A stretch of DNA of 45,220 nt from Candidatus Latescibacterota bacterium (GTDB taxonomy: Bacteria; Latescibacterota; UBA2968), in NCBI GenBank assembly GCA_022821275.1, contig JAJEDY010000075.1, positions 1 to 45,220 of the forward strand, written 5' to 3'. Position 1 is the first letter of the stretch. Every line of letters begins with the position of its first letter. The notes beneath the pieces are model-generated. The model saw only the letters and a program-made list of their open reading frames with translations. It had not been told where the DNA came from and made no database searches. A program made the position numbers and the translations under genes. Below are positions 4,635-45,220 of the stretch, in pieces.

Positions 4635-4738
4635 CTGTCATTGATAAGGAAATAGAATGAGAATTATCAATTGACTTGATGTGCTGAGGTTGTTACATTT
4701 ATGATGTTGCGGGGTAGAAATATCCCGTGATCCAGTGG

Positions 4739-4788
4739 CCGAAGGGGGTTCTTATCTTGGTAGATTCCCCCCTTCGGCTTTGTTTTTT
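4739..4788 (+). terminator. Strong hairpin with T-tract, plus orientation
   Basis: The arms CCGAAGGGGG (4739-4748) and CCCCCTTCGG (4768-4777) pair perfectly over 10 bp, and CTTTGTTTTTT follows. This is an intrinsic terminator for plus-strand transcripts. Both neighbouring genes are on the minus strand, and read that way the hairpin has no T-tract after it. It may block antisense transcription or be left from a lost gene. The rest of the 4640-4843 gap shows nothing else recognisable. Confidence 0.65.
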
Positions 4789-4843
4789 AGATATTCTGTT
4801 GGCGTTTAGAGTAGTTCTATATTGAAGGCGTATATCTGCAGCG

Positions 4844-6155: not shown

Positions 6156-7775
6156 TTAGTGCATGTGCCCGTGATCGTGGGCGGGCGCAGCACCTTCGTT
6201 TTCTTCTGGCAGATCTGTCACCAGGGCTTCGGTTGTCAATAATAGTCCCGCGATAGACGCTGCATTTTCGATTGCGGTGCGCACCACTTTTGTGGGGTCA
6301 ATCACACCGGAATCTACCAGGTCTTCGTATTGCTCGGTGCGTGCATTAAACCCGTAAGCGCCTTCGCCTTCGTTTACTTTTTGCACGACGAGGCTGCCTT
6401 CTGCGCCGGTATTATCGGCGATCTGACGCAGCGGTGCTTGTAGTGCGCGACGCACGATATCTACGCCTGTGCTCTGGTCGCCATGCACATCCGTTTCGTC
6501 TAAAGAGCCGGTACTGCGCAGGAGAGCGACTCCGCCGCCGGGTACGATGCCTTCTTCAACTGCGGCACGCACGGAGTGGAGTGCGTCTTCGACGCGGGCT
6601 TTCTTTTCTTTCATTTCTGTTTCGGTTGCCGCACCAACGTTGATGACGGCCACACCACCGGCTAATTTTGCCAATCGCTCTTCGAGTTTCTCGCGGTCGT
6701 AGTCAGAGGTGGTCTCTTCTATTTGCCGACGAATCTGACTCGTTCGGCCCTGAATATCGGCTATAGATCCCGTGCCTTCTACAATTGTGGTGTTGTCTTT
6801 GTCGATCACCACGCGCTTGGCTTGCCCGAGGTCGCTGATTTCGACGTTTTCGAGCTTTATGCCGAGGTCTTCTGTTATCACGCGTCCATCAGTCAGGACG
6901 GCGATATCACCCAGCATTTCTTTGCGGCGGTCGCCATATCCCGGTGCTTTTACGGCACAGGCAGCAAGCGTGCCGCGCACTTTGTTGACGACAAAAGTGG
7001 CGAGGGCTTCCCCTTCAACGTCTTCGGCGATTACCAGAAGCGGCTTGCCTGCGCCGGCGACTTTTTCGAGGAGAGGCAATAGGTCATTCATGTTTGACAA
7101 TTTTGCCTCGTGAATGAGGATCAGCGCGTCCTCCAGTATGGCTTCCATGTTTTCCTGATCGGTCACAAAATAGGGCGATAGATAACCGCGATCAAACTGC
7201 ATCCCTTCAACCACATCCAGCGTTGTCTCGATGCTTTTGGCCTCTTCAACTGTGATGGTGCCGTCTTTGCCGACTTTGTCCATTGCATCGGCTATGATTT
7301 CACCAATGCTGCTGTCGCTGTTGGCGGATATTGTCCCTACTTGTGCAATTGAGTTGCGGTCTTTTACCGGCTGGCTCTGGTCTCCCAGTGCTTTGACCAC
7401 GGATTCAACAGCCGCATCGATGCCGCGCTTGAGGTCCATTGGGTTGGCTCCGGCGGTCACGTTGCGCAAGCCTTCGCGGAAGATGGCCTCGGCCAGAACC
7501 GTCGCCGTGGTTGTGCCGTCACCCGCAACGTCAGAAGTCTTGGAGGCGACTTCTTTGACCATCTGTACACCCATGTTTTCGTAAGCGTCTTCGAGTTCGA
7601 TTTCTTTGGCTACAGTCACGCCGTCTTTTGTTACGGTGGGAGAACCCCACGACTTGGCGATAACCACATTTCGGCCAGCAGGTCCCAATGTGGCTTTCAC
7701 GGCTTTGCTCAAGAGCGTTACACCATCGAGAACGCGCTCGCGAGCATCTATTCCATAGGCAATCTGCTTTGCCAT
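6156..7775 (-). CDS. groEL: Chaperonin GroEL (Hsp60)
   Basis: The 60-kDa chaperonin subunit, which forms the double-ring ATP-driven folding chamber in the cytoplasm together with GroES. The 539-residue length is normal. The start ([19 protein letters not shown]) is typical, as are the ATP-binding GDGTTTATV segment (about residues 85-93, with Asp86), the equatorial-domain stretch [15 protein letters not shown] and the apical domain between them. ATG 7775 has an AGGAG ribosome binding site 9 bases upstream. groES lies 18 bases before it and both share the CIRCE-controlled promoter. The C-terminal tail is unusual: instead of GGM repeats it ends in a His-rich AHDHGHMH, which could bind metal and would project into the ring cavity. 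Confidence 0.98.
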
Positions 7776-30987: not shown

Positions 30988-31296
30988 GTGTCAACTATTC
31001 TGATCGCATATCTGTTTACAGCGCTTATTTTTGGATTTTTTCTCTATTATTTTGTTTGGCGAAATCGCTATGTCACACAGATTCGTCTGGCTATTCACAA
31101 GATTGAAGGGCGTGCTGTGAGCATTGAACGCATTGTGAGGGAAACAAAAAAAATCCGGGCGGATCATTACCCGGGTCTGTTGGCATTAACAAGCATCGAA
31201 TGGAGAGTTATTTATAAAGATCGCAATGACAATCTCTGCGAGACCCGCTGCCGTGTTAGAGATGGACAACTCGACTGGCATCCGCCGCTGTCATGA
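30988..31296 (+). CDS. Small membrane protein, function unknown
   Basis: A 102-residue protein from GTG 30988 with a GAAAGG ribosome binding site. One N-terminal transmembrane helix (TILIAYLFTALIFGFFLYYFVW) precedes a basic linker and a compact domain (about 35-100) with IEWRVIYKDRNDNLCETRCRVRDGQLDW, which reads as a real beta-rich domain. I do not recognise the family. It converges with the AAA ATPase gene, five bases away. A terminator-like repeat of the minus strand lies inside its coding sequence near 31146-31175. Confidence 0.6.
   Translation: MSTILIAYLFTALIFGFFLYYFVWRNRYVTQIRLAIHKIEGRAVSIERIVRETKKIRADHYPGLLALTSIEWRVIYKDRNDNLCETRCRVRDGQLDWHPPLS
31146..31175 (-). terminator. Terminator-like repeat, copy 1
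   Basis: On the minus strand CCGGG (31171-31175), a 10-base loop, CCCGG, then eight T. It sits 130 bases past the AAA ATPase stop, inside the opposing small gene. It shares about 60 bases of sequence with the element at 32942-32971. Confidence 0.5.
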
Positions 31297-31301
31297 TTTT
31301 G

Positions 31302-32879
31302 TTACATGCCCCAGATATCGATCTCGATTCCACTGCTCGATGTTCGGCGATTGTGGAATACCTTGTCCGCCCAACGCCTGCCTTCACGACGGTCAAAGAT
31401 CACCAGGTGCCCCGCCTCTGCATCACACCGATCCATGTATTCTGCGCTCTGATCCAAACCATCAGCGATGGTCTGTTTTAGGCTCTTGTGGAGTATTTTA
31501 CACTCAATCACGACTTTGCGCGTCTGATCACCCTGCGGCCATAAGATGAGCAAATCCGTGCGCATCCGTCCAAGACCATACTCCCGCTCAATACGTCCAC
31601 CGCTGTTCACGATACGCTGCAAAAACGCCTGCAATAACAACTGTGGCCCCGCCTCCTGGTATTGAAATCGTCTCACCCAATGCTCTGAGTGTTCGCGGAA
31701 GAAGGTCTGAAACTCGGTCATCAGTTTGACCACATTCAGGCTACCATCGGCATCGACGTACCAGGCCGTATCCTCATTGAGTCCCACCTGGGCTGCGTAG
31801 GTCAATTCGCGGGGGACGATTTCCGCGTAGATCGGATTGGCAATGCGGAGTGGGTCGTTTGGAGCGATCAAACCCAGATCGCGGACGTACTCGAGGTCGC
31901 GGGTCGAGAAATCGCTGTCCTCTGACCCACTCAAAAGTGGCTCGACAACGCGACGCACGCGTTCTTCCTGCAATTTGTCGGCTAGCTGGTCAAGGTGCGT
32001 CTCACGACGCAGGATGAGTTGCTCTTGTGCATTGTGGATTGTGTCGGCAGTGATCGGAATGCCGCGGTCTTGTGCGGCTACGCCATAGAAACAGGTTTCG
32101 TCCGCCAGCGCGTTGACCAGCCACGGCTGCCCCTGGGTCTGTGTCCAGATCAGTTCCAGCGCGTCGGGGGTGAACACCTGTCCCGTCTCCTCAGTGTGTT
32201 GTCCGATCAGGGCGAGCACCTCGTCTTGCGAGAAGTCGCCCAGGCGCAGGGATCGCGCTTTGATGTTGAACGCACTGCCGCCTGCGATGATCGCGTTCTC
32301 TGCGGTGGATTGGATGCGGTAATCGCGCACGTCGCGCACACCGCACAGCACCACACTTTGCGGAAAGTCCTCCGGGCGACGGACGTAGCCTGCCCGCAAC
32401 TGCCGCAACACCGACAACAGCGCGTCCCCGATCAGCGCGTCAATTTCGTCAATGAACAGTAGCAGAGGTTTCGGAGTAGCCTCAGACCAGCGCGTCAACG
32501 CCTCACGCAGGGCACCGTGGGGGCCGTATTTCGCCAGGATGTCGAGCCAAATCTCGTCCAGAAACTCGTCGCTCAGTGTTGAACGCGCCCAAGAAGCCAG
32601 TTCACCCAGGATCGTGCGCATCACTTGTTCCACATCTTCGCGTGCAGCCTGTCCGCCTTCGACGTTGACATACACGCAACGGTAGTCGCCTTCGGCGTTG
32701 AGCAGGTCGCGCAGGGCCAGTAGTGCAGAGGTCTTGCCCGTTTGCCGGGGCGCGTGCAAGACGAAATAGCGTTTGTCGCGGATAAACCGGCGAACCTCAG
32801 TTAGGTTGAGCCGCTCCAGAGGCGGGATGCAATAGTGATCCGCAGCTACTACGGGTCCGGTGGTATTAAAAAAACGCAT
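31302..32879 (-). CDS. AAA ATPase fused to PD-(D/E)XK nuclease-like domain
   Basis: A 525-residue protein. The N-terminal ATPase has Walker A APRQTGKTS (43-51) and Walker B LLLFIDEID (139-147), in the style of archaeal/STAND-like AAA proteins. After a helical and winged-helix-like middle (about 230-370) comes a C-terminal domain with the restriction-endonuclease pattern: Asp442 (RTDLLILW) and Glu459-x-Lys461 (VVIECKI). This resembles the AAA-ATPase-like/PDDEXK fusions found in many copies in some environmental bacteria. The biological role of these is not settled; defence or mobile-element functions have been proposed. It appears GC-richer than its neighbours, suggesting transfer. ATG 32879 has an AGGGAGA ribosome binding site. 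Confidence 0.8.
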   Translation of the reverse strand: MRFFNTTGPVVAADHYCIPPLERLNLTEVRRFIRDKRYFVLHAPRQTGKTSALLALRDLLNAEGDYRCVYVNVEGGQAAREDVEQVMRTILGELASWARSTLSDEFLDEIWLDILAKYGPHGALREALTRWSEATPKPLLLFIDEIDALIGDALLSVLRQLRAGYVRRPEDFPQSVVLCGVRDVRDYRIQSTAENAIIAGGSAFNIKARSLRLGDFSQDEVLALIGQHTEETGQVFTPDALELIWTQTQGQPWLVNALADETCFYGVAAQDRGIPITADTIHNAQEQLILRRETHLDQLADKLQEERVRRVVEPLLSGSEDSDFSTRDLEYVRDLGLIAPNDPLRIANPIYAEIVPRELTYAAQVGLNEDTAWYVDADGSLNVVKLMTEFQTFFREHSEHWVRRFQYQEAGPQLLLQAFLQRIVNSGGRIEREYGLGRMRTDLLILWPQGDQTRKVVIECKILHKSLKQTIADGLDQSAEYMDRCDAEAGHLVIFDRREGRRWADKVFHNRRTSSSGIEIDIWGM

Positions 32880-32915
32880 CGCTGGATCTCCCTGTCCCAG
32901 GCATCAGTTACTCTG

Positions 32916-32943
32916 AATATATAATATTGCGACAGAAAGACAA
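32916..32943 (-). promoter_or_regulatory. Possible promoter of the AAA ATPase gene
   Basis: On the minus strand TTGTCT (32938-32943) and TATATT (32916-32921) with a 16-base spacer, about 37 bases before the ATG. The -35 box overlaps the T-tract of the terminator of the preceding gene cluster. Confidence 0.35.
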
Positions 32944-32971
32944 AAAAATCCGGATGACTCAGTATCCGGAT
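32942..32971 (-). terminator. Terminator-like repeat, copy 2
   Basis: On the minus strand a stem of ATCCGGAT with ATCCGGAT (each arm palindromic), an 8-base loop and seven T. It would end transcription of the glycan gene cluster. Compared with copy 1, both arms of the stem changed together (CCGGG/CCCGG versus CCGGA/TCCGG), so the hairpin is conserved. Confidence 0.7.
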
Positions 32972-32980
32972 CTGTTGGCA

Positions 32981-33160
32981 TTAAAACGCATCGCGTGGCA
33001 GTACCTTAATGACAATCATTTTTTGCGCTTTCGGCCAATCCCCCTCATCGGAAACCATAACCTTTTGTGATTCATAATTACCTTCTTCCTTTATCATTCG
33101 CATGGATGAGTCCGAGCGCATCCGCCGCCAGTTTGGGTTCCCATCTCAAATTTAACGCCT
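32981..33160 (-). pseudogene. Possible decayed reading frame
   Basis: Between the methyltransferase stop and the terminator, the minus strand reads LRWEPKLAADALGLIHAND up to a TAA at 33078, and in the next frame NYESQKVMVSDEGDWPKAQK and on to IKVLPRDAF, ending at TAA 32981. Joining the two needs one frameshift near 33085. I recognise no family, and there is no start codon with a ribosome binding site. On the plus strand the same region near 32930-33003 reads KIRMTQYPDLLALKRIAW, similar to residues 50-70 of the small protein at 30988. At most one of these readings is genuine. Confidence 0.25.
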
Positions 33161-33901
33161 TCAATTTTCTTGTTTCTTCGCAATGCATATAAAGTTTTCC
33201 GTCCAAATATCCTGACGTTTACCAGAACTGATTCTTCGCATCATATTCAACCCTATCTTTAATACGTGCCAAAGCATGTATCTCATTTTGCTTTTCAAAC
33301 CCCTGCCTGGAAATATAGACTCTTTCACACTCACAATTTCAAATCCTGTAAATCTCAAAAATTGCCTCAAAGACTGTGGCGTTAATATGGTCATGTGAGT
33401 CAGATCACCATAGATTATTTGACCTGCAAACATTCCTTGTCCGTTAGGAGTTCTCAAAATTAAATGACCGTTTTTATTCAGAATTTTTTTGATGCCATAA
33501 AGAAACTGGATTAATTCCTGACGTGTAAAGTGTTCGACAAAATCAATAGCGAGAATCAGATCATACGCCTGATGGTATGCCTGAAGAAAATCAAATACAT
33601 CCGAGTGATATATCTGTAATCCGTATCGCTTTGCAGCCATAACCTGTTCTTCTGAGGTGTCAATACCCTCTGCACTTGAAAATCCTTGCTTACTCAAAAA
33701 ATCAAGCACCTCACCTCGACCACAGCCTAATTCTAAAATACGGCTTTGTTTGGATAATTTTTTCAGGAACGGCTGAAGATTTTGTTCACACCAGTTATGC
33801 AGGATGGCTTGTTTGCGCTTCCAATTTCCATCGTCCTTAAACGTTGACAGATATCGGTCGTATAAAGCCTGTCTAAACTGTGTCATAATGTGATCAGCCA
33901 T
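33161..33901 (-). CDS. SAM-dependent methyltransferase
   Basis: A 246-residue class I methyltransferase. Motif I is ILELGCGRGEVLDFL (residues 55-69), with the acidic residue of motif II in GIDTSEEQV, and DLILAIDFVEHF after it. The C-terminal part (FTGFEIVSVKES, MLWHVLKIGL) is typical of methyltransferases that act late in glycan or lipid assembly. As the last gene of the glycan cluster it may cap or methylate the polymer; the substrate is unknown. The start follows the DUF354 stop with no gap. Confidence 0.82.
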   Translation of the reverse strand: MADHIMTQFRQALYDRYLSTFKDDGNWKRKQAILHNWCEQNLQPFLKKLSKQSRILELGCGRGEVLDFLSKQGFSSAEGIDTSEEQVMAAKRYGLQIYHSDVFDFLQAYHQAYDLILAIDFVEHFTRQELIQFLYGIKKILNKNGHLILRTPNGQGMFAGQIIYGDLTHMTILTPQSLRQFLRFTGFEIVSVKESIFPGRGLKSKMRYMLWHVLKIGLNMMRRISSGKRQDIWTENFICIAKKQEN

Positions 33902-34894
33902 TTATCTTGTTAGCTCTTGTATAATCACATCCGTCGTATCGTCCCAACCTGCATTCTGTTGTGAAAAGTCCTTTTCTTCCCAAAGCATTCTCTCCAAAGT
34001 CGGTATAATCTCAGTCACATCTGGACAATGCAACCGGCCGAAATTAATCAACTCGCTATTGATTTTCATGTCTCGACCACCAATATATATCGCTGGCGTA
34101 CCAAGCAAAGCAGCCTCTCTTGCAACAGTGTCTCCAGATGAGATCACACATTTGGCATAGTATAATAAGGTATGCATTTCACTTGTAGATTCCGGTAGCA
34201 CATATATGTTATCAAATTCTCGAAATTCCAAAATATGGGAGCTTCCTTCTTCCACCGAAGCGATTACAGAAAATTTATTCTGGGATAAATAAGCCAATAT
34301 TGTCTTCATATTTTGACTTGAATGATCAGACCAGTAATCCAAACTGATATGTGCAATTTGTCTAATAAAAACATACTTCTTTTTCCGAACGCCATACTTT
34401 TTTAGAATTTCTTTTGCAGGCTCAAAACGGTTGAGATACGCGAGTTCTTTATACCCGTTGAAAGTGCCAATATTCTTTCCCGTGATTCCCAGAAGCTGTG
34501 GAATAATAAATTTTGAAGAGAATATTCGGCACAAAAAAAATAAGAGTTTGTATTCAGCATTGTCGTAAAAAACCACAGATCTCTTTCTCGTAATCCAACA
34601 AGCAATTGAAACGTAAAATCCCCCATGGCTTGTTGCGACATCATAAGGATTTTTCCATCCCTCCCAAATCAGATAGGCTATGCGGTGAAATAAGCCGAAC
34701 AGTTTGCCCATACGCGATCCATAATGCCTCCCAAAAACCTTAATGGGCACATTGAGCTCTTTCTTGGCAAAATCAATCAAATCTCCTCTGGGCCTAATCA
34801 GGACAGTTACATCATGTTCAGCCTGTAGATTCCGAATGGTTTTCTTGTAGAAATTTAAATGGGCTGGATGTAAAATATCAAATAGAATACGCAT
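33902..34894 (-). CDS. DUF354 protein, glycosyltransferase-B-like fold
   Basis: A 330-residue DUF354 family protein. Members resemble UDP-GlcNAc 2-epimerases and MurG-type glycosyltransferases and occur in polysaccharide clusters. ATG 34894 (MRILFDILHPAHLNFYKKTI) has an AGGTGA ribosome binding site. The HPAHLNFYK start, RPRGDLIDFAK, and the C-terminal nucleotide-binding-like ISSGDTVAREAALLGTPAIYI are family hallmarks. The precise reaction is not established for the family. Confidence 0.82.
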   Translation of the reverse strand: MRILFDILHPAHLNFYKKTIRNLQAEHDVTVLIRPRGDLIDFAKKELNVPIKVFGRHYGSRMGKLFGLFHRIAYLIWEGWKNPYDVATSHGGFYVSIACWITRKRSVVFYDNAEYKLLFFLCRIFSSKFIIPQLLGITGKNIGTFNGYKELAYLNRFEPAKEILKKYGVRKKKYVFIRQIAHISLDYWSDHSSQNMKTILAYLSQNKFSVIASVEEGSSHILEFREFDNIYVLPESTSEMHTLLYYAKCVISSGDTVAREAALLGTPAIYIGGRDMKINSELINFGRLHCPDVTEIIPTLERMLWEEKDFSQQNAGWDDTTDVIIQELTR

Positions 34895-34931
34895 CTTCAC
34901 CTGCCGTATAGGTTGGTGTTTAAAAAATAAT

Positions 34932-35564
34932 CTATTGTTGTAAATTATCTGCATTGACACGCCTGAGCCATCTTGCAGTTGTCCATTTGTAAATCTCGTG
35001 CGATAGGCTATACATCAAATAGATGCCCGTGGATACAATAATCTGAATATCGAGTTTCACAGACTTATTATTGATATAGTAACAGTCACAAGTCAGGCCA
35101 AGACTGCGATCTGTATTTTCAGGATCAACAATTTGAGAGATGCCAGTAAGGCCGGGTAAAGTTTGGTATCGGCGTTCAAAGTTCGGGATGTTTTTCATAT
35201 AAAAATTGTGTAGTGGTTCCCTGATCGGCCTCGGACCTATAAAATCCATATCCCCCTTGATGATATTCCAAAGCTGAGGTATTTCGTCAATTTTTGACAT
35301 TCGGAGCAAACGTCCACTTTTTGTCGTGTATTTTTCCTTATCTACAAACAGGTCATTTTGACCTGTTTTTTTTCGGTCAATCATTGTTTTAAGTTTATAA
35401 ATGGTAAAGGGTCTTAAGTTTTTTCCCACCCGGATTTGTTTGAACAAGCATCTATCCCGCGTCTCTATCCAGATCAATACAATACCCAGGATGACGAGCG
35501 GTAATAGCAAGAGGAGAAAACTCAGCGCACACAGCACTCTTAACATTTTATTGAAACGGCTCAT
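34932..35564 (-). CDS. Polyprenyl-phosphate sugar-1-phosphate transferase
   Basis: A 210-residue monotopic phosphoglycosyl transferase (bacterial sugar transferase family, as WcaJ/PglC). It starts glycan assembly by moving a sugar-1-phosphate from a nucleotide sugar to undecaprenyl phosphate at the inner membrane. One N-terminal re-entrant helix (LCALSFLLLLLPLVILGIVLIW), FKQIRVGKN..FTIYKLKTM and the catalytic Asp93-Glu94 in SKIDEIPQLWNIIKGDMDFIGPRP are present. It sits between a GT4 gene and the DUF354 gene. Confidence 0.93.
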   Translation of the reverse strand: MSRFNKMLRVLCALSFLLLLLPLVILGIVLIWIETRDRCLFKQIRVGKNLRPFTIYKLKTMIDRKKTGQNDLFVDKEKYTTKSGRLLRMSKIDEIPQLWNIIKGDMDFIGPRPIREPLHNFYMKNIPNFERRYQTLPGLTGISQIVDPENTDRSLGLTCDCYYINNKSVKLDIQIIVSTGIYLMYSLSHEIYKWTTARWLRRVNADNLQQ

Positions 35565-35567
35565 TTC

Positions 35568-36836
35568 CTAAACCTGATTGACGAGCGTGTCAAGGATATG
35601 AGCAAGTTGCTTTGCTAACTGTTTTCGCTCAAATGCCCAGAGGTGCTTATTATTTTGAATCTCACAATCCGAAACCTTGCGATATCGCAATAGATTTGAC
35701 ATATAACGTGCTATATGCCCAGGGTCTCGGCTTGCGAAACATAAACCTTGGTTTACACGCGCGATAATTTGTACAGCGTCTGAATCCTGGTCTGCTATTG
35801 CCAGTATTGGTCGGTTGGCTCTTAAGTATTCGAAAATTTTGCTCGGAATCCACTGTTTATCTGGTACAAAAAAAGTCAATACATCAGCTCCTAACATGTA
35901 CTGCAAACATTCTCTGTGTGGTATTTGTGAGATGATATGCACACAAGGTCCTAACTCATATTTCTCTATCGTGTCTCGGATAAATGCGTCCTGTCTTCCT
36001 AAGAGGACCAATTGCATTTTTTGCCGCAGTTTTGGATGTGTTCGCCGCAGCACATCCAATGCTTGGAACATTGGCAGCGGAGACAATTCTCTAAACAGTG
36101 ATCCGGCATATAAAAAAGTGAATTTGGAGAATACATGAGGTGTTAGATCTCTGAAGTCTTCTTCATCAAATCCATTCGTCAAAACTTGCGACTTCTCTTT
36201 TATATCAGACTCAAAACTTCGGAGAATACCAGGCCAGGCAGCAAGAATGCAATCTGCATCGCGAAGCACAATTCTTTCTAAGTACTTCTCGAACTGTTCG
36301 AGAGGCTGAATGCGTTTTGGACGGTGTTGTTTCTCGATCCAGGGATCTCTAAAATCGGCTATCCAGGGACGCTTATATTTTAGATGGAGTGTTCTTCCAA
36401 TGAGATGTGAGGTTTCACGAGGAGATGTAGAATAGATCGCGTCTATATTCTCCGTCTGGAAAATCTCTCTTGCCTTACGTACACCCGTAAAATACCAGAC
36501 GACATATTGGTCAGGCACAAATAAGGACCGGATTAAAGAAGCCAGGGAATTTTTAGACAATGAAAAAGATCCTTGTTTAGCCCGTCCACCTATTAGTCTG
36601 TAAACGTCATACAGAGAAGGAGAATTGACCCGATAAATGCTTAAATCTTTCGGAATGCCATCTAACAGTTTTTCATCCACAGCGTCTAAATGATTTTCTT
36701 GCCGCTTGCAAGTCAGAATAACCGGTCGCCATCCAAAATCCTGAATATACTTCACGAATTTAGTAACCCGCAGAACCCCCACACCATTAAAAGGAGGAAA
36801 TTTTTGTGTGATCATCAAAACTGTTCTCAAAATCAT
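35568..36836 (-). CDS. Glycosyltransferase, GT4-like
   Basis: A 422-residue GT-B glycosyltransferase, likely of family 4. The N-terminal domain opens MITQKFPPFNGVGVLRVTKF; IADFRDPW, VLTNGFDEEDF, FLYAGSLF and PSKIFEYLRANRPILAIADQ give the nucleotide-sugar binding half. The donor and acceptor sugars are unknown. Its ATG overlaps the preceding stop as ATGA. Confidence 0.85.
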   Translation of the reverse strand: MILRTVLMITQKFPPFNGVGVLRVTKFVKYIQDFGWRPVILTCKRQENHLDAVDEKLLDGIPKDLSIYRVNSPSLYDVYRLIGGRAKQGSFSLSKNSLASLIRSLFVPDQYVVWYFTGVRKAREIFQTENIDAIYSTSPRETSHLIGRTLHLKYKRPWIADFRDPWIEKQHRPKRIQPLEQFEKYLERIVLRDADCILAAWPGILRSFESDIKEKSQVLTNGFDEEDFRDLTPHVFSKFTFLYAGSLFRELSPLPMFQALDVLRRTHPKLRQKMQLVLLGRQDAFIRDTIEKYELGPCVHIISQIPHRECLQYMLGADVLTFFVPDKQWIPSKIFEYLRANRPILAIADQDSDAVQIIARVNQGLCFASRDPGHIARYMSNLLRYRKVSDCEIQNNKHLWAFERKQLAKQLAHILDTLVNQV

Positions 36837-37900
36837 ACCTCCCGAATAAATTGATCGTGACCCGTATTTTCTAATTTCTTAATGTCATAGATTTCTGTCA
36901 CATCGGGGACAGGTAAGAACTCCCAATTATATCCACCATCTGTTAATTTTGGCGGTTGTCTCGCATACCATAGCCCTGCCTTTTCCCATTGCTGTTTGGC
37001 GGTAGAATGATTTTTGGTTGCACTCGCACCTGCAATGATTTTTTCGCCATCAACATGCAATCCGCGTATATATCCGCCGGGAAGTTGTGCTACGCGCTCA
37101 ACCTTTTCTCCAGCGGGTGATATTCGCCATATCCTGTGATCAGCAGATTCACAGACATAAAACCAATTGTCAAAAAACTGAATGCTGTGAGGGTGAATTA
37201 TGCCTTCATATATGATTTCATAGCGAACAGGCGCTCGCTGTTGAGATAAACTGCGTTGTGCTTGTATATCCTTCCATTTGATTAAAACCAGACCACCATC
37301 AAGCATTTCGCTCCATCGTTTTTTTGAATTTATATCTCTGCCTTTTAGTGAAAACATGGTCATATACAAACCATTGGATGCAGGATAGATCGAGTTTACA
37401 TGTCGCAGATCGTTATCATGAGTGTCGATATATATAAATCCCAGAGGGTGTAATATTCTTTCTTGCTCGACTTGAAACATAGCGATACAGTTGTACCGAG
37501 ACATGACAACATATAGAACGTTTTGGTAAATACTCACATCGTGCAAATCCAGTGACATTCTACGCAGGGGAAGCCTGGGCAAAAGACGCTCAAACCCACG
37601 CGTTAATTTCCTCACGAATGCCGAAGAGGAATCAGGTCCAATGACCAGATTTTTTAAAAAAATGTTGCGTCTGAGTTTTGCATGTAGTCCTTCGGCTGCA
37701 ATTCGATATTTGTGATTAATTTTGAAATTTCTGTCCAATCGTATCAAATTGCCATTGCAGGCAACCCAGGCACCATTTTCACAAAGCCCTATTCCCCGTG
37801 AATTACCCGCTAAAATAGGCCACGTTTTTTTTTCTTTCAAATCAACCAAAAAGATGCGCCCATTCGATCCACAGGAAGAAATCAGGTACAGTGATTTCAT
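36833..37900 (-). CDS. Beta-propeller-like protein of the glycan cluster
   Basis: A 355-residue protein without a signal peptide. Repeating beta-strand patterns (GRIFLVDLKEKKTWPILAG, LHDVSIYQNVLYVVMSRYNCI, HPHSIQFFDNWFYVCESADHRIWRISPAGEKVERV) suggest a propeller like DUF4915/SMP-30 proteins. I cannot name a reaction. It overlaps both neighbouring glycosyltransferase genes by 4 bases, so it is translated with them and likely works in the same pathway. Confidence 0.65.
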   Translation of the reverse strand: MKSLYLISSCGSNGRIFLVDLKEKKTWPILAGNSRGIGLCENGAWVACNGNLIRLDRNFKINHKYRIAAEGLHAKLRRNIFLKNLVIGPDSSSAFVRKLTRGFERLLPRLPLRRMSLDLHDVSIYQNVLYVVMSRYNCIAMFQVEQERILHPLGFIYIDTHDNDLRHVNSIYPASNGLYMTMFSLKGRDINSKKRWSEMLDGGLVLIKWKDIQAQRSLSQQRAPVRYEIIYEGIIHPHSIQFFDNWFYVCESADHRIWRISPAGEKVERVAQLPGGYIRGLHVDGEKIIAGASATKNHSTAKQQWEKAGLWYARQPPKLTDGGYNWEFLPVPDVTEIYDIKKLENTGHDQFIREV

Positions 37901-39045
37901 CGCATAATCTCTTCTATGATAGCAAGCATACGTTTAGTTGAAGCAGTCCAGTTCAGTTCTCTTTCAACTCTTAATCTACCAGCTTTTCCTTGTGCCGCAG
38001 CGAGTTCTGGATTTTCGAGATATTGGATGAGTGTATCAGCGCAATCGTCAGCAGAAAATGGATCGATAACTGATCCTGTCTGACCGTGTAGAACAGCTTC
38101 TTCAACTCCGCCTGACTTGCCACCGATAACCGGCGTTGCACATGCATTTGCTTCAAGAAAAGCAATACCAAAGCCTTCGACCTGACAAAAATTTCCCCTG
38201 ACTTGTGAAAGCATAATGAAGACATCTGCAAGGTTGTAATAGTCTCTCAGGTCACTATCCGCCACAAAACCCGTGAAGATAACATATTGTTGCAAGTTTA
38301 AAGATTTGACCAATTTTTCGAGGTAATTCCGATGATGTCCTGTGCCTGCAATGAGGTACTTGATCTGTGGGATTTGGCGACAAACCTTCGGCAAGGCGCG
38401 AATCACCGTTTCATGGCCCTTATGTGGTACAAGCCGAGATACTGACAAGATCACCTTGTGGTCTTTTAGTCCATATTTTCGAAGCAAATCATTTGGTTTC
38501 TGAGTAGGATAAAAATCTTTGGGATCTACAGCGGGATTTACGATATGTGTTTTCCCCATCGAAAGCCCCATCTTTTGCAAAAGCGACTTCGTATAAGCAC
38601 TGTTTGGGAATATACCATCAGATGCTTGCAGGATTTTATATCTGAGAAATCCCAACCGTTTCCATATACGATGCTTTAAGGTGAGATCAGTCTCCCGGAG
38701 TTCGGTTCCATGGGCGATTGTGAAGTATTGAAATGGCATCAGGTGTCGAATGAGATAGGTATGTATGCCAGACCGCCATTCCCCATTGATTACCACATCA
38801 CTTCCTGCACTGAGCGTATAATAGAACAATCTCAGGGTCCATATAGGGGTCCAAAAAAGGCTTTGAGGAATGCGTTTTGTTATGAACGGTTGCTTTCTAT
38901 CAAAGGTTTTGCATCCTTCACAGTGTGAAGCGACCACGCAGATAGCGTGTCCTTGAGAAACCATTTCTAATGCAAGATGATGGAGATAGGTCTCAATACC
39001 GCCTTCTTTGGGGCGATAATTTCGGGATGTAATTAGAATATGCAT
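37897..39045 (-). CDS. Glycosyltransferase family 4
   Basis: A 382-residue GT4 glycosyltransferase. Opens MHILITSRNYRPKEGGIETYLHHLA; has ILSVSRLVPHKGHETVIRALP, IAGTGHHRNYLEKLV and the donor-site block EGFGIAFLEANACATPVIGGKSGGVEEAV with the EX7E pattern. A retaining enzyme, donor unknown. It begins 3 bases after the BtrH-like gene and overlaps the propeller gene. Confidence 0.93.
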   Translation of the reverse strand: MHILITSRNYRPKEGGIETYLHHLALEMVSQGHAICVVASHCEGCKTFDRKQPFITKRIPQSLFWTPIWTLRLFYYTLSAGSDVVINGEWRSGIHTYLIRHLMPFQYFTIAHGTELRETDLTLKHRIWKRLGFLRYKILQASDGIFPNSAYTKSLLQKMGLSMGKTHIVNPAVDPKDFYPTQKPNDLLRKYGLKDHKVILSVSRLVPHKGHETVIRALPKVCRQIPQIKYLIAGTGHHRNYLEKLVKSLNLQQYVIFTGFVADSDLRDYYNLADVFIMLSQVRGNFCQVEGFGIAFLEANACATPVIGGKSGGVEEAVLHGQTGSVIDPFSADDCADTLIQYLENPELAAAQGKAGRLRVERELNWTASTKRMLAIIEEIMR

Positions 39046-39048
39046 GTG

Positions 39049-40113
39049 CTATTGACCCCTTAGCATCCTGTAGATAGATCTTAAAATTTGTTCTTCATCA
39101 TCTGCAATGCGGAGAAACTGATCCTGCAAATCGCTCAGGGTTTTATCATCTTTTGTCATATAAATTCTGGTAAATGACCGAGCAATGAGCTTCCATTGTT
39201 TTGAGATAGATTGCCATTGGCGTTCTATCTTATGAAGATCAGAGGCACAACCTTTTACTTGTAGGCCAGAACAGACAGCCATAAATTCCGATCTTTCCTG
39301 GTTGAGCATAAGTGCTTCGCTACACGCCTTTCTTGCTCTGCGCTCAAGCACATCTGGAGATTCTTGCGCCCACAGAGGAAGATTGTCCGCAAAGCTCCGA
39401 ATGCCTTTCAGTCCAGAAATAACAGATAATGGTGGCAAATCTCGACTCGGTTGATTTCTTAAATATTTCCAATAGACCTTTTGAATGAGCCGCGTTGGTT
39501 TTCTATATGAATAGAGATTGTTTTCGACTTTTTTCTTCATTAACCGAATCAAGGTTTTAGTCTCAGGGATGTGGCACCCCTCTGGTACATGAAAATCATG
39601 GAACTGTTTATGTGCCAAATGATTTCCTACAAATTCAATGGGCATCCATTGAAAAGGCTGCGCCCCATTACTCACCATCAGAATAGTGTCCTGCACATCA
39701 TCAATACCACATCCAACATAAGTCGCGTGATCTGAGCCATCATCGGAATAGCTGTTGCGATTTTTTGCTGCAATCCACAATAGCAATGACCGGTTATTCT
39801 GTATTAAAATAGTGATGTGTTTGCGAAACTCTGAAGGGGTTGAGCAGATAATTGGTTCTATTCGAACATTGAAAAGTTCTCGTAGATTATGGAATACACG
39901 CCCTCGGGTATAAGCATGACGAAAGGTATTTGAGGTAGGAAAGTGCCAAAAAGACCATCCTAATTTGAGCAACTCAAAAGTTTGTAAATTTTCAAAAAAC
40001 GGAGCATGATAGGCCAAAATATTCATGACATGTCCGATGCAAAACATGTACTTGTTGCCAGCAGTTCCATCAGGGCCGGGGTATGGTTTTACTCTGTCTA
40101 TTACACTATTCAT
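39049..40113 (-). CDS. BtrH-like papain-fold protein, tentative
   Basis: A 354-residue protein. The first half resembles the BtrH N-terminal domain, a papain/C39-like fold known from butirosin biosynthesis, where it acts as an acyltransferase. The candidate catalytic Cys is Cys25 (YMFCIGHVMNILAYH) and the His is His129 (GSDHATYVGCGIDD). The C-terminal half is helical and Arg/Lys-rich (about 215-354) and may correspond to DUF4872. If right, it may transfer an acyl or aminoacyl group onto the glycan. The assignment rests on motif spacing alone; no carrier protein gene is nearby. It lies 58 bases after the beta-helix gene. Confidence 0.4.
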   Translation of the reverse strand: MNSVIDRVKPYPGPDGTAGNKYMFCIGHVMNILAYHAPFFENLQTFELLKLGWSFWHFPTSNTFRHAYTRGRVFHNLRELFNVRIEPIICSTPSEFRKHITILIQNNRSLLLWIAAKNRNSYSDDGSDHATYVGCGIDDVQDTILMVSNGAQPFQWMPIEFVGNHLAHKQFHDFHVPEGCHIPETKTLIRLMKKKVENNLYSYRKPTRLIQKVYWKYLRNQPSRDLPPLSVISGLKGIRSFADNLPLWAQESPDVLERRARKACSEALMLNQERSEFMAVCSGLQVKGCASDLHKIERQWQSISKQWKLIARSFTRIYMTKDDKTLSDLQDQFLRIADDEEQILRSIYRMLRGQ

Positions 40114-40171
40114 GACATCAAAATCTCATAAAGCACTTTTAGATTTAGAAATAGGATCCAATCTACAATCG

Positions 40172-41908
40172 CTACCGATTCACTTTCTCATAAATACTCA
40201 GTGAAAACCCAACGCCTTCGTAATTCATTCTTAATCTTCTTTGTAGTTGGTCTTCGTAGAGAGACATTGGCAACAGCCTATCTCCCTTCCCAATCCCTTC
40301 AACGTAATCCAATGGTGTCGCGTCTTTGCCAAATATTAGATCTGTTAACCAGAGTTTTAAATTGCGAGGTTTTAGGGTTACTTTATAGCACTTACCCCGG
40401 GTTCCAATAACATATCCCCATCCAAACTGTCTCGAGTCGATAATTGCTGATTTGCTGTGGGGATGATATTTTTTTCCGATTGTATTCCAAAAGACAGATT
40501 GCGTAGTTGTATGTCCATGCACTTTTTGTTCAAATAAATTGTCAATACCGCCTAAACGATAACGCGCCTCTAACCAATCTTTATCAACTGTCACATTATC
40601 AAATAAATTCGCCACACTCAAATACATATGAAAATCACTTGGCAACCTGCCATTTTTTGAGAGACAACGGTGAATAACATTTCCGGTTGCCCACATTCTT
40701 TTTATAGAGTAATTGTGTCGTCCATTTACAGCAGAGCAGTCTTGAATAAGACAGTCACTTCCAGCTAATATATAAAGATAACCGTTGCCCCCTCCTCCTC
40801 TATACTGAGGATTTCGCAAATCACAGTTGCGAATTGTGATGTTGCGAGACATGTTTATCTTGATGCCATGGGAGAGAACATGCCAGTCATGTGAATTTTC
40901 CTTTGGCCTAAAAGTATTGATATTCTGAACCCAGCAGTTAATCGCATTTTGAATATAGATTATTGAAGAATCATGAACCTCATAAGCTCCCGTATCGGCT
41001 TCATCCCAGTCATCATCTTGGAAGCCAGAGCCAAGATGCTCTTTCATACCAATCGAAAGGTTTTCAATACCGACCTCTTGTATATGGGGTCTTACTTTGT
41101 AAATATGTGCCTGATATTTCTGCAAAAGAAAATAGCGGGTGGGTATATCAACAGTGAGGACATTAGCGATCGTATCAACTTCTGTAATGCGACGTAAAAG
41201 AAGCATCCCCTTTTGCTCAGCAGATGACCAAAGTGTATTCATACCATGATCATCTACAAACGCTTTTGTAACATCTGCCCTTAAAACGACCCAGTCATCT
41301 TTTTTAAAGTTGGAAATGTTAGCTACAGGTATTCTGTGCGTTGGACTATCTAAGTCTTCAGTGACTCTCACTGATTTTCCTGATGGAATTAGCCAGGAGC
41401 CAGGCTTGCTAATCAAAACAACCTTCTTGTTGCGCATCTTCCATTCGTCATTATATAAAAAGGTTTTATTTTTTCCTGCGCCTCTCAATATTACCCGGTT
41501 TGACCTGATATGAAGTGCCTGGGACTGTCCGGAAGGAGGTCGTATTCTGTACGTACCTTCTGGCAAAAAAACAATACCACCGCCTTGCGATCCGACATGG
41601 TCGATGGCTTTTTGAATTGCAAGTGTAGCATTCTTTTTTCCCGTATTATCCGCTCCAAATGGATCTGCCGTGACATCCACCTGAATTCCACTATGAGATA
41701 CTGGTATTTCTTTTTCGCCCATATAATACCCAGCATAGGAAAAGTCATGAAGAAAACGGCCTTCTTTATCCTTATATCCTGGTTGCCAAGATTTGGGATA
41801 TAGTTTGCTTCGCCAATAATTGTCTTCTTGAGCATTTACTGGCTTTTGAATAAGGAGAAAGAAGAAAATAAAAATCGAAGCTATTCCTAAATGGGTTGAT
41901 CTACGCAT
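40172..41908 (-). CDS. Secreted right-handed beta-helix protein (pectate lyase-like)
   Basis: A 578-residue protein with a cleavable signal peptide (1-26, ending PVNA). Residues about 78-180 have the Pectate_lyase_3/GH28-like opening: DPFGADNTGKKNATLAIQKAI, GGGIVFLPEGTYRI, VILRGAGKNKTFLY. Repeating rungs follow (IENLSIGMK, INCWVQNINTF, ITIRNCDLRNP, CLIQDCSAVNG). It is probably a periplasmic or surface lyase/hydrolase or glycan-binding protein that trims the polysaccharide. It leads the 33-42 kb cluster. Confidence 0.82.
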   Translation of the reverse strand: MRRSTHLGIASIFIFFFLLIQKPVNAQEDNYWRSKLYPKSWQPGYKDKEGRFLHDFSYAGYYMGEKEIPVSHSGIQVDVTADPFGADNTGKKNATLAIQKAIDHVGSQGGGIVFLPEGTYRIRPPSGQSQALHIRSNRVILRGAGKNKTFLYNDEWKMRNKKVVLISKPGSWLIPSGKSVRVTEDLDSPTHRIPVANISNFKKDDWVVLRADVTKAFVDDHGMNTLWSSAEQKGMLLLRRITEVDTIANVLTVDIPTRYFLLQKYQAHIYKVRPHIQEVGIENLSIGMKEHLGSGFQDDDWDEADTGAYEVHDSSIIYIQNAINCWVQNINTFRPKENSHDWHVLSHGIKINMSRNITIRNCDLRNPQYRGGGGNGYLYILAGSDCLIQDCSAVNGRHNYSIKRMWATGNVIHRCLSKNGRLPSDFHMYLSVANLFDNVTVDKDWLEARYRLGGIDNLFEQKVHGHTTTQSVFWNTIGKKYHPHSKSAIIDSRQFGWGYVIGTRGKCYKVTLKPRNLKLWLTDLIFGKDATPLDYVEGIGKGDRLLPMSLYEDQLQRRLRMNYEGVGFSLSIYEKVNR

Positions 41909-41938
41909 GATCGTCTTTTCTCAGATTTAAAGACACAG

Positions 41939-41967
41939 TTTCTATGCAAGAACATTACAATCTTCAA
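41939..41967 (-). promoter_or_regulatory. Possible promoter of the glycan cluster
   Basis: On the minus strand TTGAAG (41962-41967) and TAGAAA (41939-41944) with a 17-base spacer, about 31 bases before the ATG at 41908. The -10 box is a weak match. Confidence 0.35.
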
Positions 41968-41991
41968 TAGGTATTTTTCATTCATCAAGCC

Positions 41992-42075
41992 CACATTTCC
42001 AAATGCTTGAGCCTTGAACTGCAGTTTTAGTCTGCCACCGACACTCGACTCGCCAGGGTCTGTCAGTGGATTTTG
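41992..42075 (+). repeat. Terminator-like direct repeat, copy A
   Basis: Begins CACATTTCCAAATGCTTGAG and contains CCACCGACA...TGTCAGTGG, a 9-bp stem with one mismatch, then ATTTTGC. A second copy lies at 44966-45038 in the same orientation. Between 41909 and 42117 there is no gene. Confidence 0.65.
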
Positions 42076-42117
42076 CTTGTGAATACTTCCTCAGATTAAT
42101 TCCAGAAGTCCATTACC

Positions 42118-42567
42118 TCAAGAAGGATAAAGAAAATTGTCGAGAGAGTAAGGAGTAGATTCCGACAAAGATAAAAAACAACAACAAAGTAAGAAGACCA
42201 AATCCTGGAGCAACACAACATACAAATTGGTTTCATTGAACCCAAAACAACCACAGGCAATATCTGCACCGCGGAGAATATTAATGCTGACTGCGGCTGC
42301 AAATATTAAAAAAAGGACAGAGCTACTGAGCACCGCACTCTTGTGCCACAAACCGAAAAATAAAAATAAACCTGTCACAAGCTCAATATAGGGCAAGAAA
42401 ATTCCCCATAGCACGACCAATTCCTCAGGGAGCAAATTGTAGGCTTTAACAATTTCAATAAATGCTTCAGGATTACGGATTTTTACAATCCCAGCCCATC
42501 CGAGAATGACCCCCAGAAACACCCGGACTACGGTTCCTGCCCATGCCATTTTGGGATATAGAATCAT
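42118..42567 (-). CDS. MauE/DoxX-like redox-associated membrane protein
   Basis: A 149-residue protein with four predicted helices, in the MauE/DoxX family. It carries the motif ADIACGCFG, the Cys pair typical of MauE-like proteins thought to handle disulfides or redox equivalents in the membrane. ATG 42567 overlaps the rhodanese stop as ATGA, so the two are translationally coupled. A rhodanese-MauE pair is a recurring arrangement; the partner substrate is unknown. Confidence 0.78.
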   Translation of the reverse strand: MILYPKMAWAGTVVRVFLGVILGWAGIVKIRNPEAFIEIVKAYNLLPEELVVLWGIFLPYIELVTGLFLFFGLWHKSAVLSSSVLFLIFAAAVSINILRGADIACGCFGFNETNLYVVLLQDLVFLLCCCFLSLSESTPYSLDNFLYPS

Positions 42568-43103
42568 CTGTCAAAACCCATTTGGACTTGTCTGCATGCG
42601 GTGATGCACAAGCAGGTCGGATTTTCACCCTTTACCCATTCCTCCCATCCTCCTTCAAAAACTTGAACCTGTGTAAATCCAAATTTTCGCGATAGAAACT
42701 TCGCCAATTCGATACTGGTATTACAATTCTTACTGGAACAATAGACAATTATTGGGGTCTCGCGGGCAACATTACTCAAAAGCTGTTCGGAAAAATAATC
42801 TCGCTGAATGTACGGTATGTTCACTGCCCCTGGAATATGGCCTTCGTGATAAGCTGATTCAGAACGTCCATCGATAAGCAATATTTGTGATTTCGATTGT
42901 GTTGCATTTTGAAGACCGTCTAAAGAGACATAAGTTATATCATCTTGTTCTTCAGAGATTTCAACATTGCCCAACAAAAACTGTTCAATAAAAATAACAG
43001 TATAAATCAATCCTGCACCCATTCCCAAAATTTGGATAACCAATGCACGCAAAAGAACTAATTTTATGTCAGGATTGCGAAATTCTATACTCACCAGTTC
43101 CAT
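42564..43103 (-). CDS. Membrane-anchored rhodanese
   Basis: A 179-residue protein: an N-terminal transmembrane helix (about 15-38) followed by a periplasmic rhodanese domain (about 55-165). The features include ILLIDGRSESAYHEGHIPGAVNIP, active-site Cys122 in YCSSKNCNTS, and VFEGGWEEW. A Cys cluster near the C-terminus (TCLCITAC) is unusual for rhodaneses and could bind metal or take part in thiol exchange. It lies 3 bases after the ABC exporter gene and is coupled to the MauE-like gene. Confidence 0.85.
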   Translation of the reverse strand: MELVSIEFRNPDIKLVLLRALVIQILGMGAGLIYTVIFIEQFLLGNVEISEEQDDITYVSLDGLQNATQSKSQILLIDGRSESAYHEGHIPGAVNIPYIQRDYFSEQLLSNVARETPIIVYCSSKNCNTSIELAKFLSRKFGFTQVQVFEGGWEEWVKGENPTCLCITACRQVQMGFDR

Positions 43104-43106
43104 TCC

Positions 43107-44876
43107 CTATGCGATAAGTTGCTTGCGAAAAAGATGCCAATAGTGTCCTTTTCTCTTCACCAACTCGTCATGGGGTCCTTTCTCAACCACTCTCCCCCCA
43201 TCCAAACAAATAACCTCATCTACCTGCTGGATAGTACTGAGTCTGTGGCTAATCACAATCATTGTCTTATCTTCATATAAATCCTGTAAATTTGCTATAA
43301 TTTCACCTTCGCTTTCAGAATCCAGTGCCGACGTAGCTTCATCCAGGATTAGAATATCCGAATCTCTCAAAATTGCACGCGCAATAGCAATACGCTGCCT
43401 TTGACCAACCGAAAGCGTGTTACCCCGGTCACCGATAAGTGTAAGAGCACCATCTTCTGCATTCTCAATAAATCCATCTAAACCAGCTATCCTGATCGCT
43501 CGATTGATTTCTTCAGGCGTACTTTCCGGCTTGCTGTATCGGATATTGTCCCAGATCGTATCATGAAAAACTTGATTTTCCTGGGTTACCAGACCAATGT
43601 GCTCTCTCAGATCATACAGCTTGATATGGGTAAGCGGTGTGTGATCAATAGTAATCTCACCTGTATCGGATTCGTAAAAACGACACAGCAAATTGACCAA
43701 TGAACTCTTGCCACAACCGCTTGATCCTACCAGAGCATATTTTTTTCCTTTTTCAAGTCTTAAACTGAAGTCCTGCAAAACGGGTTGTCCGTTATATCCG
43801 AAATTGAGGTTGGTGAACGCAATCTCCTTATGAAAAGAAAACGGACTGGCGGCAGATGAGTCGGACGTTTTTTGAATATCAATCTCGAGAAATTCAAATA
43901 CCCGCTTCATTGAAACAGATACACGGATGAGTTCTACATAAAGCTGATTGAGATTTCTAAATGGTTCAAAAAGACGCGACAGGTATTGCAAAAAAGCAAC
44001 CAATGCCCCCAGGCTCATGACGCCTAACATGACTTTATGCCCGCCCCATCCCAGAATGATCGCAGGCGTCAGGGATGTGAAAAATCTCGAAATTGATCTC
44101 ATCACGCCAGAATAGGTTACATTTTGCATACTGATATCCATGAGACCATTTAGCTGTGACCGCAGTCTATTATTTTCATAATTATAGGCATTATAGACCT
44201 GAATCAATTGGATAGACTCAAATCGCTCAATCAAATAGCTCATGACTTCAGAGCCTTTCTTTTGGCCGCGTTCCGTAATATCTTTTATTTTTGGCTGGAA
44301 GTAGAGAATATTGAGTGCCAGAAAGGGTATGACAATAATAGAAACCAAAAATAGCTGCCAGTTCAACCAGCAGAGAGCCACAGTAATCCCTATGAGTGTC
44401 AACAAGCTATGTACAAGACTCAAAGCACTTGAAGTGATAAACGACTGAATCCTATCAACTTCGTTGCTCATTCTATAAACAACATCTCCAGACTTATTGC
44501 GATCATAAAAGCTCAAGGGCAACTGGATCAAGTGGTCGAAGAGATGGCTCCTTATATCCAGCATAATGCGATTGTTTATCCATGCAAACAAATAGTCTGA
44601 ACAAAAACCAATGATGATATTACCTACTGTAATGCCCAAGAGCAGAAGCAAAATCCATATCAATAGTTCGTAATCTTTGTTTGGAAAAACGTCATCAATA
44701 ATAATTTTCATGATATAGGGAAAAGCCAGCGAGCTAACAGTCCCTAAGATCATGAGGACGAAAACAATGCTTTGGTGTACCCAATAAGGTTTCAGAAATT
44801 TTAAAAAATGATAAAAGACGTGTCTATTCTTAGAGACATCAAAAATAGCCGAGATGACTTGTTGCTTGTTCTTCAT
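43107..44876 (-). CDS. ABC exporter, MsbA-like permease-ATPase
   Basis: A 589-residue half-transporter with an N-terminal six-helix domain and a C-terminal ATPase. Motifs: Walker A GSSGCGKSS (about residue 382 on), Q-loop VTQENQVF, signature LSVGQRQRIAIARAIL, Walker B ILILDEATSALD and H-loop VISHRLST. It works as a dimer that flips lipids or exports glycolipids or peptides. ATG 44876 has AGGTGA upstream; a GTG 39 bases earlier lacks a ribosome binding site. Position beside the glycan cluster makes a lipid-linked glycan a reasonable guess for the substrate, but the redox genes behind it leave other options open. Confidence 0.92.
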   Translation of the reverse strand: MKNKQQVISAIFDVSKNRHVFYHFLKFLKPYWVHQSIVFVLMILGTVSSLAFPYIMKIIIDDVFPNKDYELLIWILLLLLGITVGNIIIGFCSDYLFAWINNRIMLDIRSHLFDHLIQLPLSFYDRNKSGDVVYRMSNEVDRIQSFITSSALSLVHSLLTLIGITVALCWLNWQLFLVSIIVIPFLALNILYFQPKIKDITERGQKKGSEVMSYLIERFESIQLIQVYNAYNYENNRLRSQLNGLMDISMQNVTYSGVMRSISRFFTSLTPAIILGWGGHKVMLGVMSLGALVAFLQYLSRLFEPFRNLNQLYVELIRVSVSMKRVFEFLEIDIQKTSDSSAASPFSFHKEIAFTNLNFGYNGQPVLQDFSLRLEKGKKYALVGSSGCGKSSLVNLLCRFYESDTGEITIDHTPLTHIKLYDLREHIGLVTQENQVFHDTIWDNIRYSKPESTPEEINRAIRIAGLDGFIENAEDGALTLIGDRGNTLSVGQRQRIAIARAILRDSDILILDEATSALDSESEGEIIANLQDLYEDKTMIVISHRLSTIQQVDEVICLDGGRVVEKGPHDELVKRKGHYWHLFRKQLIA

Positions 44877-44965
44877 ATTCACCTGTGATGTAAACAACTT
44901 AAAGTAGGTAGGCACCTATATGAGGCATCTTACTTGAGGGATATAGAAAACCATTCTCTCGTTCT

Positions 44966-45038
44966 CACATTCCCAAATGCTTGCGCTTTGAATGCCTGCT
45001 GCCGACACGCGACATGCCAGGGTCTGTCGGCGGCTTTT
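44966..45038 (+). repeat. Terminator-like direct repeat, copy B
   Basis: Begins CACATTCCCAAATGCTTGCG and contains CCGACA...TGTCGG followed by CGGCTTTTTAT. It matches copy A at 41992-42075 over its length apart from a 12-base gap and scattered changes. The other parts of 44877-45080 hold no gene that I can see. Confidence 0.65.
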
Positions 45039-45080
45039 TATATTTAGAAATTCGGACAAGTAGATAGATAACCCCGTATC

Positions 45081-45220
45081 TGGACTTGACCCGTTTGGGT
45101 GGGTACCTTATCAGTAACCAGAAAGGAGACCCACTATGCCACCAACACGTCCCCCTTATCCATCCGAGTTGAAACGTCAGATCGTGGAGCTTGTGCGCGC
45201 TGGTCGCAGTCCTTCTGAAC
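45081..45220 (+). mobile_element. Left end of an IS3-like element, cut by window edge
   Basis: The sequence from TGGACTTGACCCGTTTGGGT at 45081 has the look of an IS3-family left inverted repeat (TG-start, TTGACCC-GTTTGG core), followed 55 bases later by the start of a transposase frame. The right end is outside the window, so the exact boundary and target duplication cannot be checked. Confidence 0.6.
45136..45220 (+). CDS. IS3-like transposase OrfA, 5' end only
   Basis: Twenty-eight codons from ATG 45136, preceded by AAAGGAGA. The peptide MPPTRPPYPSELKRQIVELV..GRSPSE matches the N-terminal helix-turn-helix (HTH_Tnp_1) of IS3/IS911-type OrfA proteins. It runs off the window; OrfB should follow by a programmed frameshift. 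Confidence 0.75.
   Translation, partial: MPPTRPPYPSELKRQIVELVRAGRSPSE

Follow-up and report, generated by a model that had tools for sequence, protein, structure and literature searches.

The window, meaning the whole 45,220-nucleotide stretch analyzed here, is contig C100 of a Latescibacterota MAG (G000, genome 5.66 Mb). The named relatives of its ATPase gene come from metagenome bins, mostly of Latescibacterota and with Entotheonella and Pseudomonadales included; together with the literature, these bins suggest a marine-sponge symbiont setting. The locus of interest holds a minus-strand gene that encodes an AAA ATPase joined to a nuclease-like domain, with a direct repeat on either side and a small plus-strand gene at its 3' end. 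Its features, read as proposed below, are:

30988..31296, plus strand: intact small-protein gene, the putative target gene, 102 aa, GTG start, found in 9 of 10 congeners
31147..31296, plus strand: copy 1 of the putatively duplicated target segment, A-run to stop codon, about 150 bp, matching the right copy and a fragment on contig C10
31155..31174, minus strand: terminator-like hairpin within copy 1, lying about 130 nt beyond the ATPase stop, with a T-run after the hairpin
31302..32879, minus strand: putatively inserted AAA / PD-(D/E)XK (PDDEXK_9-like) gene, 525 aa, AAA_22 match at 1.4e-9
32880..32954, minus strand: 5' region that appears to travel with the gene, with ribosome-binding site, promoter-like TTGTCT-16-TATATT (promoter scan) and T-run end
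32942..33001, plus strand: decayed front part of target-segment copy 2, 81% identical to copy 1
32946..32973, minus strand: terminator-like hairpin within copy 2, a short way upstream of the promoter-like site of the ATPase gene, with a T-run after the hairpin
33002..45220, no strand assigned: left part of a probable polysaccharide-gene island of about 22 kb, whose other part is C10:1-8915

The AAA part of the encoded protein matches AAA_22 and AAA_35 best, and its C-terminal domain looks like a PD-(D/E)XK nuclease of PDDEXK_9-like type. Eighteen of 20 relatives match PDDEXK_9 (PF08011) at E <= 1 (best 2.5e-4; the window protein itself is not among the matches), and the isolated domain scores 23.3 bits against PF08011, below the curated cut-off of 25.5. 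Across 20 sequences, the P-loop at A43-T50, the Walker B motif IDEID, and residues D442, E459 and K461 are invariant or nearly so, and purifying selection on the gene is strong (omega about 0.11). The predicted structure is poor (pLDDT 55.8). A PDB sequence search gave nothing useful, phage genomes and viral contigs gave no match, PADLOC and NCBIfam gave no assignment, and PADLOC gave no restriction-modification match. About 70 bp of the 5' region recurs at 79% identity upstream of the gene copies L027, L032, L033 and L081.

The repeat and the small gene

The original prediction described a direct repeat of about 60 bases flanking the AAA/PD-(D/E)XK gene in one orientation, and this repeat is real: positions 31147-31203 and 32942-32998, on either side of the gene, agree at 46 of 57 positions (81%), with an alignment score of 62 against a maximum of 28 among 1000 dinucleotide shuffles. 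The small ORF encloses the left copy rather than adjoining it, and the congener alignment identifies the repeat as coding sequence. Read from the sequence, the right copy translates as KKIRMTQYPDLLALKRIAW and the left as KKIRADHYPGLLALTSIEW, so the right copy can indeed be taken as a fragment like the small protein. The small protein itself has no Pfam match; its gene occurs as one copy, at 75-91% protein identity, in the congeners that have it, where it adjoins the same antiporter operon. The proposed search of the genome for further copies of the segment was also run. Across 5.66 Mb, a TCTGTTGGCATTAA search allowing at most one mismatch returned both repeat copies and two unrelated matches, and no further copy of the repeat.

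Each copy also carries a hairpin. The observation that paired stem positions had changed together is a fair one, since a terminator-like minus-strand hairpin with its T-run is kept in both copies and in congeners G002 and G008. Folding z-scores are weak in the window (about -0.3 to -0.5 for copy 1, -1.9 for copy 2), and comparable hairpins occur in G002 (z -2.1) and G008 (z -3.2). The A-run and hairpin are present together in the window copy, G002 and G008; the other aligned congeners have lost the A-run to a 9-nt deletion. With this weak support from folding, the hairpins look like minus-strand terminators, and the hairpin may once have terminated the convergent gene that lies 3' of the small gene in relatives. 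The hairpin is nevertheless incidental to the origin of the repeat, which hairpins do not explain.

The second copy and the polysaccharide island

Downstream of the small gene, the congeners have the convergent gene; the window instead has the ATPase gene, with polysaccharide genes beyond it. A search of the same genome found the native downstream sequence on contig C10, from about position 8970. There, C10:8916-8975 contains the last part of the small gene, its stop codon, and then the native flank. The right repeat in the window ends about 25-40 nt short of the point in the gene where the C10 fragment begins, and that stretch is missing. Window 32942-33001 and C10:8916-8975 evidently belong to a single second copy of the 3' half of the small gene, running from A-run to stop. 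This copy meets the 5' end of the ATPase gene through an A-run common to both, which suggests repair at short homology. It differs from copy 1 at 19% of positions and keeps states common to the congeners (AAAACGCAT).

The second copy occurs only alongside the ATPase gene, clearly in G000 and probably in G010. Comparison with relatives that lack the ATPase gene, as the original prediction proposed, covered eight congeners, and none of them has a second small-gene copy. This absence favors the suggestion that the ATPase gene was inserted by duplication, as do the locus-specific duplications that flank other ATPase copies. G010 also carries an ATPase gene at the small gene's stop. Beyond that gene lies the native flank, and ahead of the flank a decayed 28-bp piece of the small gene (score 31, reached by 0 of 2000 shuffles). 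The tree suggests independent insertion in G000 and G010. The ATPase-gene copies are mosaics, however, so recombination among them appears common and the two genomes could share one insertion.

The sequence between the two parts of the second copy, window 33002-45220 and C10:1-8915, probably forms one island; the C100-C10 join is inferred from MAG contigs. Stretches of both island parts are syntenic with G002:C48 and G005:C49, their order and orientation preserved, and by inspection the ends of C100 and C10 read as the start of an IS3 orfA and the end of an orfB, the window ending at the start of the IS3-like orfA. Crossing-over between ATPase copies was considered because the native flank on C10 adjoins another ATPase copy; it was set aside because a single inserted island explains the synteny and the IS3 ends more simply. 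The methyltransferase gene at 33161-33901, which matches Methyltransf_23, belongs to this later island.

Several other repeats were observed. The island contains a recurring short interspersed repeat, about 75-110 bp long (window 41965-42074 and 44964-45039; 7560-7657 and 4188-4262 of L117, the C10 locus). An intergenic segment of about 165 bp is 82% identical at two unrelated places, window 4642-4807 and L117 8424-8592, with a similar match at G000:C4:16505-16650. Window 4844-6019 encodes a Lys/Ala-rich repeat protein with histone H1-like tail repeats and a 105-bp tandem unit at 5721-5930.

Other copies of the gene and their targets

Relatives of the ATPase protein, 65-89% identical, are encoded at unrelated sites, with 4 copies in G000 and 1-19 per congener; two genomes of another family carry 14-15 copies, tandem arrays included. 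Head-to-tail arrays are seen at G008:C1:2373-10850 (L086), G008:C1:242781-246098 (L089) and G046:C1:4213882-4217146, with spacers of about 100-180 bp between the ATPase genes. Copies share homology up to the stop codon or barely past it, and in most subgroups it reaches no more than about 20-100 bp upstream of the start. An insert nearly always consists of a single ORF plus about 15-240 bp of sequence at each end. Copies 68-80% identical also appear in MAGs labelled Pseudomonadales, Entotheonella and Gammaproteobacteria (L101, L102, L105, L083), the Entotheonella copy on a chromosome-size contig, and they reflect either transfer across phyla or misbinning. Many plasmids from Pseudanabaena and other cyanobacteria each carry one or two relatives that are about 41% identical (PLSDB H1-H12).

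Empty sites are available for about nine insertions, and they record varied changes to the target. Target duplications measure 60 bp at L085/L111 (against three empty sites) and about 404 bp in the C10 ApbE gene (against five), and L083 has a 126-bp flanking duplication. Insertions at L094, L080 and L046 are near-blunt. Deletions in place of a duplication span 3 to about 640 bp (L080, L046, L094, L027, L074, L033, L118), among them about 30 bp at L027, 66-170 bp at L074, about 160 bp at L118, and up to 640 bp at L033. Upstream flanks match downstream flanks at 6 of 31 non-redundant loci, a result reached in 0 of 5000 permutations. A second flank set, dominated by other genera and divergent copies, gives matches at 5 of 37 loci against 0.19 expected, one of the five being a tandem pair; clear duplications in other genera measure 83, 53 and 32 bp (L161, L186, L187). 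Locus-specific direct repeats of tens to hundreds of base pairs flank the gene and are absent from empty sites at L085 (60 bp), in the C10 ApbE gene (404 bp) and in the window (about 150 bp, against eight ATPase-free loci), though not every locus has them. A long target duplication should leave one repeat copy close to the stop of the gene and another on the side of its start, and the best-resolved cases show this placement.

The ApbE locus on C10 also shows traces of its own history. At L117 10123-11700 and 11713-12744, a second ATPase copy sits between duplicated parts of the ApbE-like gene that adjoins it. That gene begins MRFFNTT, the first residues of the ATPase, as it does in G007; in G001 and G003, by contrast, ApbE is immediately preceded by a relic of an ATPase C-terminus (HDIWGM stop). 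From these remnants, an older ATPase copy at this locus seems to have decayed.

Divergence bears on where the copies came from. ATPase copies at different loci differ by a dS of 0.7-1.1, and the window's genome differs from eight congeners by 0.18-0.36 and from G008 by 0.88. Because the divergence between copies exceeds most of that between congeners, most new copies would have come from outside the genome. G008 holds a younger copy group (L095/L098, dS 0.21).

Origin of the repeat

The repeat is probably the trace of an insertion at the small gene's stop with a long, variable target duplication, followed by decay and by splitting by the island. The ATPase-nuclease gene would insert at the small gene's stop codon as a unit of about 1.67 kb carrying no other cargo, duplicating about 150 bp of target from the small gene's A-run to its stop. 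Before the island arrived, the order would have been intact small gene, ATPase gene, 3' part of the small gene, and native downstream sequence. The redundant second copy would then decay and later be split by the island of about 22 kb, leaving its front as the right repeat and its end on C10. Mechanistically, the target would be opened by a break or by two separated nicks, most likely through the gene's own PD-(D/E)XK nuclease, and a copy of the gene would be captured, usually from another cell. Repair would proceed by template switching at short homologies, here a ACAAAAAAATC-like run found in the small gene as well as at the 5' end of the ATPase gene, giving a duplication or a small deletion depending on where both ends fall. 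A fixed target duplication was rejected since the empty sites show both duplications and deletions. Sequence comparison lays out the anatomy of the insertion; that the gene's own nuclease drives it, we infer.

The main rival is passive capture with selection for the gene. It is quite possible that the gene spreads by horizontal transfer and is kept as useful, for example in defense, with host end repair making the duplications and deletions and the nuclease uninvolved. The dS between copies, 3-5 times that between most species, agrees with this, as do the strong purifying selection, the near relatives in other phyla with more distant ones on cyanobacterial plasmids, and the mixture of duplications and deletions. 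Yet randomly captured DNA should bring neighbors, and the inserts nearly always consist of this one ORF, present in up to 19 copies per genome, some of them in tandem. More tentatively, the gene may be a self-mobilizing single-gene element without cis-acting ends, whose nuclease opens the target and whose long duplication often spares the target gene.

Other origins fit the repeat less well. A conventional transposon with fixed ends would account for the gene's many sites and for the direct repeats at some of them, but it is very improbable: termini are not common to the subfamilies, inspection revealed no terminal inverted repeats, and target changes range from a 404-bp duplication to a 640-bp deletion. 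It is also unlikely that the ATPase gene landed between the small gene and a tandem paralogue. The congener states in copy 2 and its distance from copy 1 would suit a paralogue, but no congener has a second small gene, copy 2 begins at the A-run, precisely at the end of the 5' region of the ATPase gene, and other ATPase loci duplicate other genes. Least credible is a dispersed terminator or palindromic element, the repeated terminator family raised in the original prediction. Both copies do fold as hairpins, each followed by a minus-strand T-run, but a count of two in 5.66 Mb already refutes such a family. Moreover, there is no Rfam match, and the homology runs past the hairpin through coding sequence, with the rest of the small gene on C10.

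The reading as an insertion with a long, variable duplication has a precedent. Restriction-modification genes insert with a long, variable-length target duplication (Nobusato et al. 2000, as cited in PMC3031569). As that article outlines, they too are lone nuclease-coding units, polymorphic between relatives, flanked by variable long target duplications and linked to rearrangements (PMC3031569). Unlike them, the ATPase gene has no methyltransferase partner, fuses an AAA domain to a PDDEXK_9-like domain, reaches 19 copies per genome, and often inserts with small deletions. The DUF1703 family, which combines AAA-ATPase_like (PF09820) with PDDEXK_9 (PF08011), likewise places an AAA module before a PD-(D/E)XK nuclease and has expanded in symbionts, and the function of both families is unknown (Knizewski 2007, PMC1913061; Siozios 2019, PMC6387759). 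The accessible portions of these two papers describe no target duplication or mobility mechanism for DUF1703. The AAA part here differs, matching AAA_22/AAA_35 best, and the PDDEXK_9 match falls below the curated cut-off. Unlike a DDE-type insertion sequence, with its fixed ends, inverted repeats and constant short target duplication, the gene has termini that differ per subfamily, and the change at the target varies. Rpn / YhgA-like proteins, which are recombination-promoting and multi-copy, are also PD-(D/E)XK proteins, but they have no AAA module, and the family searches gave no PF04754 match. PMC1913061 calls the members of this family (PF04754) putative transposases.

On the best reading, a scar type known for restriction-modification genes appears here for a different, AAA/PDDEXK_9-like nuclease family. 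New here are a second copy recovered on a different contig, empty-site evidence seen repeatedly, and a connection of AAA/PD-(D/E)XK proliferation with restriction-type mobility. AAA-ATPase/PD-(D/E)XK families of enigmatic role multiply in many bacteria, and a restriction-modification-like scar would tie these two puzzles together. A long duplication would explain how a gene can land inside another while leaving its target intact, and the several empty sites available for comparison make a direct test of nuclease-promoted insertion possible. If the gene does mobilize itself, it would be a mobile element of a new class, which would account for the multiplication of AAA-nuclease families of this kind.
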